From Deltaproteobacteria bacterium (GTDB taxonomy: Bacteria; Myxococcota_A; Polyangia; JAAYKL01): DNA of 59,183 bases. Each line of letters opens with the position of its first letter. Within the stretch, counting starts at the first letter, position 1. Location of the stretch: positions 1 to 59,183 of the forward strand of contig JAUVDV010000028.1 of assembly GCA_030595125.1 (NCBI GenBank). The letters are read 5' to 3'. The notes under the pieces are model-generated. The model was not told the DNA's origin. It ran no database searches and saw nothing but the letters and a program-made list of their open reading frames with translations. The position numbers and the translations under genes are program-made. This document shows, piece after piece, positions 21,255 through 29,951 of this stretch.

Positions 21255-24200
21255 TCAGGGTTCATGGACTTCCTTGCGAAACTCGCCGGGTTCGTCCGTT
21301 GTGGGGGCGGCCGAAGAATCTGGGGGAAGATCCAGGGGGGCCGTGCCCTCAAATCCCTCGAGCGTCGCTTCGAGATTGGCCCGTGATTGCAGAAGGGCCA
21401 GACGAGCATGCTCCTCACGTCGCTGTATCAGCGTCACGTAGGTCTTCACGTTCTTGACCGCCTTGTCGAAATGCAGTGCGTTGTCGTGACAAAGGCCGAG
21501 ATAGTAGTGGATCTCGGGGTGGCCGATGACGTAGTTCTCGTGCTCCCGCACGAGCTGGCTCAACACTTCGATGGTTTCTTCGCACTGTGAGCTGTCCTCC
21601 GGATCGGCGTTGAGGAAGTGAAGATACCCCTTGAGGAACAGCATCTGGGGCCCTCCCCGCCGCCAGAGGTGATCGGGGATTCGATTGAACCGTTCGAGGG
21701 AATCGCGATTTGCCCGAAGAGAAAGCGCACGCTTCACGCCGTCCAGATGTTCGACAAGTTCGTCGATCTGTTCGTCAGTGATGCCCGGAGTGGGAGATGG
21801 ATCCTCGATTTCGACGAACGGGGAACCGGTTTCACCGGAGAGGAGAACAAGGACGCGCTTCGCGATCGCGAGCGCCTTGTGATTCGGATCGATCAACTCG
21901 GCCTTTTCGATGAAGCGGTTGGCCTCCCGCTTCCTGCCGTTGGTGAGCAGCGAAATCGCCTGGTTCGCCAGGTTCGTAACCTCATTGGGGCCGTCGCCAA
22001 GACCGACCAGGACTTCTCCGAGGTGGCCGTATCTCCATGAACTCGTGTAAATTGTCGCCAGATATCCCGCGAAAAGCCTGAACGAAATAAGATCGTGCGG
22101 CGCGGCGAACTCGATAACTGCGTTGTCGTCGGTGTTGATGGGCAGAGCATCCCACTTGTCCGGATCGGGGCCGTTTGTGTAGTCGATGACCTCACCCTTG
22201 TTCACCAGGAGAACCCGGGCGAACAAATCCGCCGGAGAAAGGATGTACGCGCGTTCCAACTCGGCATTCACCTTCTCATCCTTCATCTGGGAAGCAACGT
22301 GATCGAAATCGAAACTGAGGGGCTCGAACGAACCTATGAGGACCGTGTCGGCGGAGAGGTCCTCCGCCGCGAAGAGGGCGACGTGGGGAAAGACGCTCGC
22401 AAAAGTGCGAAAGATGATTTTGATGTTCGAAGGAGACATCTCGTAGAGTTGCACCCACTGGGCAAAAATGCCGCCCTCCTTGAGAGCCTTTGCGGAGGAC
22501 TGGAAGCTCTCCTTTGTGAACATGTTCGACACGCCGGTTATCCACGGATTGGAGGGCTCCGAGATGATGACGTCGTACTTCCCCGGCGCGGTGGCCAGAA
22601 AATTGCGACCGTCGTTGTTGAAGAGGGTCAGGCGATCGTTGATCACATAGGTGTCGGGATCGGTCCAGTCGTAGTCCGGGTTGGGCTCCCCCGTGTCGGG
22701 ATCGGTCGGGAGTCGGTAGACCAGATTGTTCACGTCGAACTCCGGGTCTCGTGGAGTGCCCTCCATGCTGCCGAAGACGGTTGAGGCCTCCACGACGGCG
22801 TTCTCGAGTTCCACACAGTCTACGTGCCTGACGGGAAACTCCAGGGCCGAGCCTACCGTAACCCCCGAACCGAAGCCGATTATGGCCACGTCGAGATCCT
22901 TGCTGCCCTCCGGGTGAAAGAGGAGCGGGTAGGCCGCGATCATTATCTGTGTGGGCATGTCGTCGCCGTTGGACGCGTCTACCTTTCCGTTGTTCTTGAG
23001 GGCGAAGTGCCGCCCCCACAGCTCGATGGAGACGGTTGTGGTGACGCCGTCGTGATAGTACTTGATGTCCGGATCGCCCCATGATTCCTCGTCCAGCGCG
23101 TTCTCCATGAGCGATATCCTGAAAACACCGATGGTCAGCGCCGCCGGATCCCAGCCCGGCGCGAAGAAGAGGAACAGCGTGGCCAAAGCCGCGGTCGCCG
23201 TAAAAGCGAGACCTCTAGCTATTTTATGTCCTCTGGATACGACAAGAAGCGCGAGGCCGATGAGGGCGTAGATCGTGATGGACAGGAAGAACGTGGTCTG
23301 CATGCCGAACCCGTCCATGTAATGAGAGAAGACGGGTACGAAGACGAAAGCCGAAAGGAAGGAGCCGCAGATCGCTCCGACGGTGTTCATGGCGTAGATG
23401 CTGCCCACGTCTCTTCCGATGTTCTTCAACCCGGTGACCGCAATGCGGATCGTCAGGGGAAATGTGGCGCCCATGCCGACGGTGATCGGAAGGACGGCGA
23501 GCGCGGCGACCGTGAACATTATGAACTGAATCAGTCCGACGTGGTTTTCGTAGGCTTCTATATGTCCGGTCACCATCCTGGCAAACATGCGCGGGAGATC
23601 ATCCATGTAGAGATAACTGCCCATGGCGAAGAGCATGACCGCTATCTCCACAGCGGCCAGCACGATGACGGGGTTGGAGATCCGCTTTGAGAGCTTGCTG
23701 AAGATCGCAGCCCCGATGGCCAGGCCCACCAGGAACGCGAGTAGCACCAGCGCAAAGGAATATACCGACGAACCGATGATCATCGCCATCGACCGGTTCC
23801 AGACCACCTGCAGATTCATCGCCGCGAGCCCCGAGAAGAAGAACGCGATCATCACTGTCCTGCGCTCGAAGATGGTGGCCACGAAATCTCTCGCCCCTTC
23901 GTGGACCATCGCGACCTCCAGGTCGTCCTCGGCCGTACGCTCCTCGCTGGATATGTCGGGATCGAGCCTGCGGCGAAATACCAGGATGACCAGGCAAAGG
24001 ACAATGTTGATGGTACCGGCAGTGATGTTGGTGGCATTGAGGCCGATGTTGGAGAGAAAGACGAAGGTGGCCAGGAAGACGCCGCCAATGGCGCCGATGG
24101 TGTTGAGGGTATACAGGGTTCCAACCCGGGAACCCACCCTTGTCATGTGTCCCTCTTGCCTGATGAAATGCCGGGAGAGCAGCGGAAGGGTTGCGCCCAT

Positions 24201-24584
24201 GCACGTGGTCGGGATGATGAGCACTACCGCCACGGCGAGGAAGCGAAAGATGGAGAAGAGCCAGAAGCTGTTTCCCAGATGCTCGGACATGTAGCTGTTC
24301 AGACCGGGATAAACGTTGTGAATGAGCGTCGGGATCAACAGGGCGCTCACGCCTATTACGCCCTCCACGACGGCGTAGGCTGCAATGGGTGAACGCAGGC
24401 GATCGGCGAACTTGCCGAAGAGCCATGACCCCAGCGCGAGACCGCCCATGAAGCAGGTGAGCACCGTGGAAATGGCCAGGGTCGTAGCGCCGAAAATGTG
24501 CTCCAGATGTCGCGTCCAGATTATCTCCAGCGTGAGACTGGAGATGCCGGACAGGATGAAAGCTATCAGGATAAGTGGATGCAA
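21255..24584 (-). CDS. MFS-like membrane protein fused to spermidine-synthase-like domain and TPR tail
   Basis: A 1,109-residue fusion. Residues about 1-460 contain roughly 12 membrane segments in two MFS-like halves (GLALGSWLFGKFADR, GLAIGAAIFSKLSKR). A spermidine-synthase-type Rossmann domain follows with VAIIGFGSGVTVGSALE (about 566) and SEPSNPWITGVSNMFTKESF. The C-terminus (about 870-1070) has TPR-like helices. Such proteins are common in environmental bacteria, but the substrate is not established and polyamine synthesis should not be assumed. It starts at TTG 24584, four bases after the stop of the acetate kinase fusion, so the two are probably translated together. Confidence 0.85.
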   Translation of the reverse strand: MHPLILIAFILSGISSLTLEIIWTRHLEHIFGATTLAISTVLTCFMGGLALGSWLFGKFADRLRSPIAAYAVVEGVIGVSALLIPTLIHNVYPGLNSYMSEHLGNSFWLFSIFRFLAVAVVLIIPTTCMGATLPLLSRHFIRQEGHMTRVGSRVGTLYTLNTIGAIGGVFLATFVFLSNIGLNATNITAGTINIVLCLVILVFRRRLDPDISSEERTAEDDLEVAMVHEGARDFVATIFERRTVMIAFFFSGLAAMNLQVVWNRSMAMIIGSSVYSFALVLLAFLVGLAIGAAIFSKLSKRISNPVIVLAAVEIAVMLFAMGSYLYMDDLPRMFARMVTGHIEAYENHVGLIQFIMFTVAALAVLPITVGMGATFPLTIRIAVTGLKNIGRDVGSIYAMNTVGAICGSFLSAFVFVPVFSHYMDGFGMQTTFFLSITIYALIGLALLVVSRGHKIARGLAFTATAALATLFLFFAPGWDPAALTIGVFRISLMENALDEESWGDPDIKYYHDGVTTTVSIELWGRHFALKNNGKVDASNGDDMPTQIMIAAYPLLFHPEGSKDLDVAIIGFGSGVTVGSALEFPVRHVDCVELENAVVEASTVFGSMEGTPRDPEFDVNNLVYRLPTDPDTGEPNPDYDWTDPDTYVINDRLTLFNNDGRNFLATAPGKYDVIISEPSNPWITGVSNMFTKESFQSSAKALKEGGIFAQWVQLYEMSPSNIKIIFRTFASVFPHVALFAAEDLSADTVLIGSFEPLSFDFDHVASQMKDEKVNAELERAYILSPADLFARVLLVNKGEVIDYTNGPDPDKWDALPINTDDNAVIEFAAPHDLISFRLFAGYLATIYTSSWRYGHLGEVLVGLGDGPNEVTNLANQAISLLTNGRKREANRFIEKAELIDPNHKALAIAKRVLVLLSGETGSPFVEIEDPSPTPGITDEQIDELVEHLDGVKRALSLRANRDSLERFNRIPDHLWRRGGPQMLFLKGYLHFLNADPEDSSQCEETIEVLSQLVREHENYVIGHPEIHYYLGLCHDNALHFDKAVKNVKTYVTLIQRREEHARLALLQSRANLEATLEGFEGTAPLDLPPDSSAAPTTDEPGEFRKEVHEP

Positions 24585-24588
24585 CGGC

Positions 24589-26889
24589 TCAGGCTCGTTT
24601 CTGGATCGATTCGATGGTGGCGGTCATGCCGGGTGAGACTTCGGCGGCGTTTGCTTCGTCGGTGTCGATGTGCATTTCCAGAAACCACCCGGGGTACACC
24701 CGAACGAGCACGTCCCCGAAGATCAACGATCTCTCCCCCTCGACGTTGGCCCTCACCACATCCTTGTCCCTGATTCCAAAGGCGAGGGCGTCCTCGGGGC
24801 TCATGTGGATGTGCCGGTACGCGCAGATGACCCCTTCCTCCAGCGTGATGGAGGTGTTCGGCCCTTCGAGGATGACGCCCGGAGAATTCTTCACGTCGCC
24901 GGATGCGCGGATAGGCGCGTCAATGCCCAGCTTGAACTCCTCGGTCCTGGAGATCTCCACCTGCGTGACCGGTCGCTCCGGACCGAGGATCCTCACCCTG
25001 TCCACCCGTCCCTTGGGGCCGACGAGGTTGACCACTTCCTCGCAGGCGAAGTAGCCCTTCTGTTTCAGTTCGTTTCGCGGGGTCAGCTTGTGTCCCGCGC
25101 CGAAGAGCGCCTCAACGTGCTCCTTGCAAAGGTGTACGTGATGGGCCGAGATGCCGATGGGCACAGGTTTGTCTCTGCGGGCGGTCAGTATATCCGAGAC
25201 CCCGCCACGGTTCAGAGTGTGACGCGTCTCCAAGGCGATGGCGCTCTCCTCGTCGGTGGGAACCACCATCACCACGACCCGTGACTCCTCGGAAGAGATA
25301 ATCTTGGCCGCAGCGCCCTGTCCCACGGGGATGGGGCTTCTGTTTTTCTCGTCGTCGATCTCGATGCCCAGACAAGACAGGCCGTGGCAGATCCTCGATC
25401 GGATCCCCGCAGAGTTCTCGCCGATACCCGCCGTGAACACCAGAACGTCCAGCCCGCTCATGGACGCCATGTAGGCCCCCACATATTTTCGAACACGGTA
25501 GCAGAACGACTGAACCGCCAGCAGCGCGCCCGTGTGCCCGGCGTCCGCCGCCTTTTCCAGTTCCCGCATGTCGCCCGACAGGCCGGACAGCCCCTTGAGA
25601 CCGCTCTCCTTGTTCAGCATCGTCTCGACTTCTTTGGTCGACTTTCCCTTTGAAAAAAGGTGGAGGATCAGGCCGGGATCCAGATCTCCCGAGCGGGTCC
25701 CCATGATCAGGCCCTCCAGTGGGGTGAGCCCCATGGAGGTGTCGACGGAGCGACCGTGATCAATGGCCGTGACGGACGCGCCATTGCCCAGATGGCAGCT
25801 GATTATCTTGAGAACGTGCGGCGCCTCGCCCAGAAACGCGGCGGCGGTCTGGGTCACGTATTTGTGGCTGGTTCCGTGAAAACCGAAACGTCGAAGCTGG
25901 TTGTCGTCCGCAAAATCCCTGGGAATGGCGTAGCGATGAACGTGCTCGGGAATTGTGGCGTGAAACGCTGTGTCGAAGACCGCCACCTGGGGCACGCCCG
26001 GCGGGAGGAGCCGCTTGCAGATTTCAATACCCAGCAAGTTCACCGGGTTGTGAAGCGGGGCCAGATCCGACACCCGAGCGATCTCTGACATCACATTGTC
26101 GTCGATCAGCACCGATTCCGAGAAGCGAACCCCTCCATGGACTACCCGGTGGCCTACCGCCGTGAGCTGCTCCAGTCTGTCGAGGGCGCCGTATTCGGGC
26201 GACGTGATAAGGCCCAGGACCTTCTTCAGAGCGGCTTCGTGGTTGTCGCCCTCGAGCGGTTGCTCCATTTTTCCGGCAGGTCCCCGGTGTCGAATGAGGG
26301 CGTCGCTCTGGCCTATTCGCTCCACCAGGCCTCCCGTCACCCGTTCCTTGCCGGAGAACACCGCATACTTGACGGAGGAACTCCCGACATTGATCACGAG
26401 CACGGCGTCCGTCGAGGAGTCGTCCCTTCGTGCGGAGGCAGCCCTGGCTCTCGCCATCGCGGTTTGCTCGTCCGGGCGGTCGTCGCGCGCCAGGAGGCGT
26501 TCCTTCAGCAGGCGCGCCAGCCCTCTCGCCGCCAGCGGGTTCGACCCCATTTCCCGCGTCAGGCTCTCGTGGGGGATGTGGATCACCCGCGACGATTCAC
26601 ACGCGATGATGTCGGCCATGGCGGGCTCACCGGTGAGGAGGCTGATTTCACCGAACAGCTGGCCCGCTTCGATGGCGCCATAGGGTGCGCTCTTTTTACC
26701 CGAGTCGATGAATACTTCGGCCCTGCCCGAGACCAGGATGCCGACGAAAGTCATCTGTTGACCGTGGGAGACCAGCACCTGTCCGGCGCTGTACTCCTCC
26801 TCGAAGGAATCGTGGATGAGCCGGTTCAGCGCCTCCTCGTCAAAACCCTTCAGCACCTCGTTCGCTTCCAGCACCTTCTTGATGTCCAT
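24589..26889 (-). CDS. Trifunctional fusion: CRP-like sensor domain, acetate kinase, PduL phosphotransacylase
   Basis: A 766-residue protein with three recognisable parts. Residues 1-130 form a cyclic-nucleotide-binding fold (GQVLVSHGQQ, FGEISLL at 79-85), though the Arg that normally binds the phosphate is absent (GEPAMADI). Residues 162-555 are acetate kinase: INVGSSSVKYAVF, GHRVVHGG, FDTAFH, GFHGTSHKYV, CHLGNGASV, FTAGIGENS. Residues 574-766 are a PduL-type phosphate acyltransferase with its zinc histidines: ISAHHVHL (583-586), RHIHM (693-695) and EMHIDTDEANA (740). Together they would convert acyl-CoA to acyl phosphate and then to acid and ATP, or run in reverse. Good ribosome site (AGAGGTGG). 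Co-operonic with the MFS/spermidine-synthase gene. Confidence 0.93.
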   Translation of the reverse strand: MDIKKVLEANEVLKGFDEEALNRLIHDSFEEEYSAGQVLVSHGQQMTFVGILVSGRAEVFIDSGKKSAPYGAIEAGQLFGEISLLTGEPAMADIIACESSRVIHIPHESLTREMGSNPLAARGLARLLKERLLARDDRPDEQTAMARARAASARRDDSSTDAVLVINVGSSSVKYAVFSGKERVTGGLVERIGQSDALIRHRGPAGKMEQPLEGDNHEAALKKVLGLITSPEYGALDRLEQLTAVGHRVVHGGVRFSESVLIDDNVMSEIARVSDLAPLHNPVNLLGIEICKRLLPPGVPQVAVFDTAFHATIPEHVHRYAIPRDFADDNQLRRFGFHGTSHKYVTQTAAAFLGEAPHVLKIISCHLGNGASVTAIDHGRSVDTSMGLTPLEGLIMGTRSGDLDPGLILHLFSKGKSTKEVETMLNKESGLKGLSGLSGDMRELEKAADAGHTGALLAVQSFCYRVRKYVGAYMASMSGLDVLVFTAGIGENSAGIRSRICHGLSCLGIEIDDEKNRSPIPVGQGAAAKIISSEESRVVVMVVPTDEESAIALETRHTLNRGGVSDILTARRDKPVPIGISAHHVHLCKEHVEALFGAGHKLTPRNELKQKGYFACEEVVNLVGPKGRVDRVRILGPERPVTQVEISRTEEFKLGIDAPIRASGDVKNSPGVILEGPNTSITLEEGVICAYRHIHMSPEDALAFGIRDKDVVRANVEGERSLIFGDVLVRVYPGWFLEMHIDTDEANAAEVSPGMTATIESIQKRA

Positions 26890-27030
26890 GAACCCACCTC
26901 TTTTTTGAAGAATGTCTATTTGAGCGAATCGTGAGGAGGAGGCAAGTCATTTTGTAGGAAGTGGTTCATCCGAATCCAGCCGTGGTCACATGAACCGTGA
27001 CTCTCTGAAACTGACGATCCGACCCACGTA
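26890..27030. other. Intergenic region left of the decayed transposon
   Basis: Region upstream of the acetate kinase fusion and before the first hairpin. It should hold that operon's promoter, but no clear -35/-10 pair is visible. No gene is seen. Confidence 0.4.
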
Positions 27031-29051: not shown

Positions 29052-29951
29052 TCACCGGCAGGCCATTGTTAGCAAAAGGGCGTTGTATTTATCCTTTGCG
29101 GGTGACGCGCGGGAGACCATTCCGATGGGGACGTTGCCGCCAACCACGCATGCCGCAACCTGGCCGTCGGCGAGGTAGATCAGCGATTTGGACAGCAAGT
29201 TGGCCGAGACGATGTCGGGCGCGACGAGTATGTCCACCTTCCCGGCAACGTTTGTGCTGACTCCCTTTATACGAGCGGTCTCTTCGTCCAGCGCGCAACC
29301 CAGATCGAGTGGACCCTCGATGATGCCGAAGGATTCGAGTTCGCCGCCCGGCAGGTTGAGATCCGCGAGACGAGCCGCGTCCAGCGAGCAGGGGATCTTG
29401 TCGTTTATTTCCTCCGAGGCTGACAGGATGGCCACCCTGGGCTCTTCGACTCCGAGCCGGCGCATGACGTCCACGGCGTTCTTGATGATCTGAATGCGCT
29501 GTTCGAAAGTGGGGTATGGCGTGAGCGCGCTGTCCGTAACCAGGATCGGTTTTTTGAACCTCGGAACCTCGATGAGCGTCACGTGGGACATGAGCCGACC
29601 GTCACGGCGCAGACCCTTGCGATAGCCCTCCTTCATCAGTATCCGGGTGAGGATCCTGCCCTTGAGCAACGCCTCCGCCTCGCCATTCCTGACCATCTCC
29701 ATGGCGATGAAAGCCGCCTCCGGGTCGTCCTTCGCGTGCTCCGTTCGAATCCCGTCCAGATCCAGGTGTTCGGCGGCGGCTACTTCACGCATCTTATTTG
29801 TGTTTCCGATGAGGATGGGAACGGCAGTATCTTCTTCGACCGCCATGCGCGCCGCCCGAAGCACCTCGGGCGCGGCCGCGCCTACCAATCCAATGACGCC
29901 CTTGCGCGCATTTTTGACCAGTCGGTGGAGGTTTTCAAAGCTCTTTTTCAT
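29052..29951 (-). CDS. Phosphate acetyl/butyryltransferase family protein (Ptb-like)
   Basis: A 299-residue member of the PTA/PTB family, which swaps CoA for phosphate on acyl groups. Typical blocks are RMAVEEDTAVPILIGN, MVRNGEAEALLKGRI, VTDSALTPYPTFEQ, VAILSASEEI, EGPLDLGCALD and LVAPDIVSANLLSKSL. Length and lack of an extra N-terminal domain favour the phosphate butyryltransferase group over classic Pta. It is the last gene of the PPIase-mtnP-pfkB-ptb run; no partner butyrate kinase lies beside it, although an acetate kinase fusion lies 2 kb away. Confidence 0.88.
   Translation of the reverse strand: MKKSFENLHRLVKNARKGVIGLVGAAAPEVLRAARMAVEEDTAVPILIGNTNKMREVAAAEHLDLDGIRTEHAKDDPEAAFIAMEMVRNGEAEALLKGRILTRILMKEGYRKGLRRDGRLMSHVTLIEVPRFKKPILVTDSALTPYPTFEQRIQIIKNAVDVMRRLGVEEPRVAILSASEEINDKIPCSLDAARLADLNLPGGELESFGIIEGPLDLGCALDEETARIKGVSTNVAGKVDILVAPDIVSANLLSKSLIYLADGQVAACVVGGNVPIGMVSRASPAKDKYNALLLTMACR

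Follow-up and report, generated by a model that had tools for sequence, protein, structure and literature searches.

A cyclic nucleotide-binding domain without its ligand arginine precedes an acetate kinase-PduL fusion in a deltaproteobacterial genome

The locus and its three-domain gene

The window, which is the whole stretch of 59,183 nucleotides that we analysed, carries on its minus strand a gene (24589 to 26889) for a protein of 766 amino acids that consists of a cyclic nucleotide-binding domain (CNBD), an acetate kinase (Ack), and a PduL phosphotransacylase, in that order. The assignment is based on the open reading frame, on Pfam and NCBIfam domains, on orthologues, and on dN/dS ratios. 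The gene is a single open frame of 766 codons with an ATG at 26889, a TGA at 24591 to 24589, and no internal stop, and a ribosome-binding-like GAGGTGG is present upstream of the ATG (26890 to 26901, minus strand). Pfam recognizes cNMP_binding at residues 31 to 114 (5.2e-16), Acetate_kinase at residues 163 to 552 (2e-139), and PTAC/PduL at residues 577 to 751 (1.8e-73). We place the CNBD at residues 5 to 135 (26485 to 26877), the acetate kinase domain at residues 162 to 555 (25225 to 26406), and the PduL domain at residues 574 to 765 (24595 to 25170), all on the minus strand. The linker between the CNBD and the kinase (residues 136 to 160, 26410 to 26484, minus strand) is helical at residues 141 to 153 and has a low model confidence (pLDDT about 45 to 51). 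The AlphaFold model of the full-length protein has a mean pLDDT of 86 and a pTM of 0.60, and because of this pTM the relative placing of the domains in the model is unreliable.

The initial annotation stated that all three domains are carried by one polypeptide, and this is borne out by the uninterrupted frame and by 28 distinct proteins with the same domain order. Two congeners have the same three-domain protein, at 93% and 92% identity, so that neither chance nor a join made in assembly accounts for the frame. There is practically no chance that an assembly error or a frameshift joined separate genes, as nothing at this locus points in that direction and the 28 proteins come from separately assembled genomes. 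The only observation on the other side is that one homologue from a metagenome-assembled genome (MAG), L038, is broken by a frameshift. The independent copies thus rule out an artefact.

Directly downstream, at 21255 to 24584 of the minus strand, lies a gene for a fused MFS/spermidine synthase-like protein of 1109 amino acids, with a TTG start 4 bases after the stop codon of the fusion gene. This protein also shows a weak TPR-type match, below the cut-off. The same gene order is found in congener L109, but not in congener L108 nor elsewhere among the loci examined. In the loci whose neighbours were read, no conserved operon partner was found beyond the genus, and as the neighbouring genes differ in other genera, they do not suggest a partner. 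The minus strand of the window also carries a gene of the PTA/PTB family (29052 to 29951), for which the best score is Ptb-like. It has no adjoining butyrate kinase gene and lies in a run with genes for a pfkB-type kinase and an MTA phosphorylase.

Two catalytic halves and their metabolic setting

Both enzymatic domains score far above the cut-offs of their families. For the kinase, the PF00871 profile gives 465 bits (cut-off, 22) and TIGR00016 gives 461.9 bits (cut-off, 293.4), and the predicted fold matches that of 1g99 with a Z score of 54.1 and an rmsd of 1.4 over 393 amino acids that are 47% identical. Sequence alignments to solved acetate kinases (2iir, 1tuu, and 1g99) map the active-site residues of the M. 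thermophila enzyme to N167, S170, S172, K174, R248, H280, D306, F337, H338, H366, N369, R399, and E547, all of which are present. Our residue table, which lists the catalytic residues N167, R248, H280, D306, H338, H366, R399, and E547, is likewise filled, and the tested catalytic set N7, R91, H123, D148, H180, R241, and E384 (M. thermophila numbering) is complete. The catalytic roles are those generally ascribed to these residues in the family. Residues V250, F337, and P390 form an acyl pocket of the acetate kinase type and not of the propionate kinase type. The kinase domain has the same fold and catalytic residues as AckA (1G99, 2IIR) and differs from it by the extra domains at both ends.

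For the PduL domain, PF06130 gives 246.5 bits (cut-off, 25) and NF011652 gives 249.8 bits (cut-off, 209), and the fold match to 5cuo has a Z score of 29.1 and an rmsd of 1.1 over 188 amino acids. In R. palustris PduL, one zinc ion is bound by His48, His50, and Glu109 and the second by His157, His159, and His204, and phosphate is contacted by Arg103 and Ser127 (Erbilgin et al., PMC4784909). An ungapped alignment to 5cuo shows that all equivalents are present in the fusion (H584, H586, and E645 for Zn1; H693, H695, and H740 for Zn2; R639 and S663 for phosphate). The zinc ligands are invariant in 67 of the 67 fusions examined, and the Arg103 position is changed only once, to Lys. The claim that the recognizable catalytic residues of both halves are intact thus holds when tested against solved structures. 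Residue 613 (25051 to 25053 in the window), which corresponds to Gln77 of R. palustris PduL, is Tyr in only the three sampled genomes of the genus and Gln in most other fusions. A Tyr or Phe at this position occurs in PduLs that are thought to use lactyl-CoA (PMC4784909), so the fusion may also accept substrates besides acetyl-CoA.

PduL usually occurs in microcompartment operons (PduL phosphate propanoyltransferase, 5CUO), and with this enzyme the PduL domain shares its fold and all zinc and phosphate ligands. It differs in that it is fused, no encapsulation peptide was seen on it, and its genome has no shell genes. Matches to the shell family PF00936 numbered zero in the genome of the window (95% complete) and in all ten further genomes of family f1 that were scanned. 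The initial annotation reported no shell genes nearby, and this can be extended to the whole genome. A microcompartment enzyme is therefore rejected for this genome. Several members of the class that do have shells (for example, G017, G026, G034, and G036) carry extra, separate PduL or Ack copies.

The fusion is the sole PduL and the sole acetate kinase found in the genome, besides one acetate kinase family match at 60.8 bits. This match is weak and adjoins Ptb and a POR subunit gene, and for these reasons we read it as butyrate kinase-like. The three genes lie together at positions 23960 to 26033 of another contig of the same genome (G000:C195) and probably form an operon that converts 2-oxo acids to acids plus ATP. 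The genome also has ADP-forming acyl-CoA synthetase-type genes, so acetate could be made by a route other than the fusion. Six POR family matches suggest a ferredoxin-linked oxidation of 2-oxo acids, which would yield acetyl-CoA and other acyl-CoAs.

The direction of the pathway deserves comment. It is conceivable, but in our opinion unlikely, that the protein works as an acyl-activating enzyme, converting an acid, perhaps one other than acetate, and ATP into acyl-CoA. Both reactions are reversible (PMC4784909), and the Tyr613 of this genus, located at the position linked with lactyl-CoA, would fit such a role. However, the six POR family matches favour the fermentative direction, and the Val at position 250 indicates an acetate-type kinase pocket. 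We consider acetyl-CoA as probably the substrate and acetate as probably the product.

Relatives of the fusion

A search for the three-domain order in other genomes, which the initial annotation had proposed, was productive, as the order recurs in at least 28 genomes. Frequencies were counted within the class and phylum of the window, and copies in other phyla are named genomes only. Within the class, 23 of 318 genomes have the three-domain form (families f1, f5, f8, f11, f15, and f17) and about 72 have a two-domain Ack-PduL form, counts that are based on the listed matches sorted by match extent. In a sample of 379 genomes of the phylum, the two-domain form is widespread and one further CNBD-bearing copy was found in another class (G346), its PduL end being lost at a contig end. 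Among named genomes, the three-domain form is present in Deltaproteobacteria bacterium CSMAG_220, Syntrophaceae, Candidatus Magnetominusculus, and Azonexaceae, and the two-domain form in Bacteroidota, Rhodobacteraceae, Granulosicoccaceae, and a Myxococcales MAG.

In a quick, unrooted tree made without the CNBD columns, a branch supported at 99% (SH-aLRT) has all three-domain proteins (27/27) on the same side. Such a pattern is consistent with a CNBD that was joined once and was then inherited and transferred between phyla. As the tree is quick and unrooted, gain and loss of the CNBD are indistinguishable in it. No separate CNBD gene was seen beside two-domain fusions in the flanks examined, and Pfam detected no other N-terminal sensor domains in the long reading frames of the relatives.

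The joining of the two halves is less rare than was implied at first. Multidomain proteins that contain PduL, lack encapsulation peptides, and mostly carry an Ack annotation were reported in 2016, together with a proposal of channelling (Erbilgin et al. 2016, PMC4784909); as the counts above indicate, such fusions are common in this class. Like these proteins, the one in the window has PduL behind the acetate kinase on a single chain, with no encapsulation peptide seen; it and its three-domain relatives differ by the N-terminal CNBD and form their own branch. The Ack-PduL fusion is thus already known, whereas the form with a CNBD looks undescribed. What is new is the N-terminal CNBD joined to Ack-PduL, with its Arg missing in all relatives. 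In the literature searched, which included few subscription journals, we found no paper in which a cyclic nucleotide-binding domain and acetate kinase are both mentioned, and this is not proof of absence.

In the three-domain relative from an Azonexaceae MAG (L028:6001-8292), the phosphate-binding residues of the kinase are degraded (S10I, S12Q, K14H, N211I, and E384D) and the zinc ligands of PduL are intact, so that this protein is possibly a pseudokinase. In several two-domain fusions (L146, L148-L153, L156-L158, L160, and others), the three-domain profile finds only a weak match, or none, in about the first 80 residues of the kinase, although the frame is long enough. The kinase N terminus of these proteins appears to have diverged or to contain an insertion.

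The CNBD and the predicted control of the enzyme

The initial annotation called the N-terminal domain CRP-like. This is correct for the sensor fold, as the domain scores 58.8 bits with PF00027 (cut-off, 27.5) and its model matches the CRP/FNR-type protein 2gau with a Z score of 17.3 and an rmsd of 2.2 over 130 amino acids, but there is no DNA-binding part. Pfam found no helix-turn-helix family in the protein, and where CRP/FNR transcription factors have their C-terminal helix-turn-helix, the acetate kinase follows the CNBD. Other proteins also combine a CNBD with an enzyme or another function. In mycobacterial Pat, an N-terminal CNBD controls a fused enzyme of acetyl metabolism and is reported to bind and be activated by cAMP (PMC5861322). 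Like Pat, the protein in the window joins a CNBD without a DNA-binding domain to an enzyme; unlike Pat, the three-domain family lacks the phosphate-binding Arg. The family 2B encapsulin, identified by an NCBIfam match, is another case, in which a CNBD that has no DNA-binding domain accompanies a protein of another function.

The phosphate-binding cassette of the CNBD, FGEISLLTGEPAMADIIA, is without the ligand Arg. Its motif is GEISLLTGEPAMADIIA, with Ala at the position of the ligand Arg, and alignment to 7pza gives GEMALLDGQPRSADATA. That this Arg is missing had been noticed from the sequence at the start, and we can now state that it is missing throughout the family. It is absent in all 27 distinct three-domain proteins, the one in the window included, where Ala, Thr, Pro, Val, or Leu is found instead, mostly Ala or Thr. 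A further copy that is interrupted by a contig end also lacks it (28/28). The Glu of the FGE motif, Glu81 in the protein of the window, is retained in 26 of the 27, and the FGEMSLLTG core of the cassette is nearly invariant. An absent Arg is not exceptional as such, since among the other CNBDs of the genome only 7 of the 11 that aligned keep it in our reading of the alignment. Its uniform absence from the three-domain family points to a change that was fixed in the founder of the family. No literature on Arg-less CNBD cassettes was found.

The absence of the Arg may be tolerated in certain CNBDs. A CNBD that still binds cAMP or cGMP through a substitute residue and acts as an ordinary cyclic nucleotide switch would be compatible with this, with the conserved Glu of the cassette, and with the class III cyclase gene in the genome. 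The Arg has disappeared from every relative, where one of five other residues replaces it, but is kept in 7 of the 11 other CNBDs of this genome that aligned, and this makes such a switch very unlikely in our judgement.

The CNBD is the fastest-evolving domain, yet it is maintained. Between species of the genus, dN/dS is 0.25 to 0.38 for the CNBD, 0.13 to 0.16 for the kinase, and 0.03 to 0.15 for PduL, all well below 1, which indicates purifying selection. The mean pairwise identities are 37% for the CNBD, 56% for Ack, and 68% for PduL. Residues 85 to 90 of the cassette have a low confidence in the AlphaFold model. Because of its rate of evolution and this low-confidence cassette, the CNBD could have lost ligand binding altogether. 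It would then be a structural module that dimerizes, localizes, or stabilizes an unregulated Ack-PduL, a possibility to which we give some weight although we find it doubtful. The missing Arg and the many close two-domain fusions without a CNBD are consistent with it. The nearly invariant FGE Glu and FGEMSLLTG core, however, go beyond what a mere scaffold needs, and the purifying selection on the CNBD also argues against it.

Taken together, we favour, with a probability of about two in three, a stand-alone bifunctional enzyme that converts acyl-CoA, phosphate, and ADP to acid, CoA, and ATP and is under allosteric control by a CNBD that lacks canonical cAMP binding. Sequence and predicted fold show which domains are present, that the active sites are intact, that the architecture is conserved, and that the Arg is lost. 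Catalysis by the fusion is well supported by its residues and folds, from which we infer the activities themselves. The PduL half, with its two zinc ions, would convert acyl-CoA (probably acetyl-CoA) and phosphate into acyl phosphate and CoA, and the kinase half would transfer the phosphate from acyl phosphate to ADP. The fusion may keep the labile acyl phosphate local and so allow channelling, or it would at least fix a 1:1 ratio of the halves. The CNBD is not expected to recognize cAMP or cGMP as canonical CNBDs do. Most likely it would respond to a different ligand, or make contact via its C-terminal helix, and so relay to the kinase dimer a signal that may set the flux or the direction of the pathway. 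Against such regulation counts the fact that about 72 genomes of the class have the fusion without a CNBD. A more specific form of this reading, which we put forward tentatively, is that the CNBD has exchanged its ligand (for example, for a pathway metabolite such as CoA, an acyl-CoA, a nucleotide, or a cyclic dinucleotide) and gates a channelled Ack-PduL pair, which would make these proteins an undescribed class of acetate-forming enzymes under direct allosteric switching that has spread to at least four phyla.

Together, acetate kinase and a phosphotransacylase give anaerobes one of their basic means of conserving energy. With both steps and a sensor on one chain, such a protein would be a small system in which to test whether acyl phosphate is channelled and whether acetate overflow is controlled directly at the level of a ligand. 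A CNBD family with a fixed loss of the Arg is also useful for asking what such domains sense, and the interest would rise if the ligand of the CNBD were found.

Several other CNBD loci of the same genome (L162, L168, and L173) encode tandem CNBD proteins, and in L162 and L168 one copy has the cassette Arg and the other does not. In three relatives with the CNBD, which belong to different phyla, the adjoining upstream gene encodes a rubrerythrin (L125:314-928) or a flavin reductase-type protein (L026:3530-4222 and L027:5483-5995, one of them with rubredoxin). Three relatives are too few to build on, and these neighbours give a hint of a redox or oxygen stress context.
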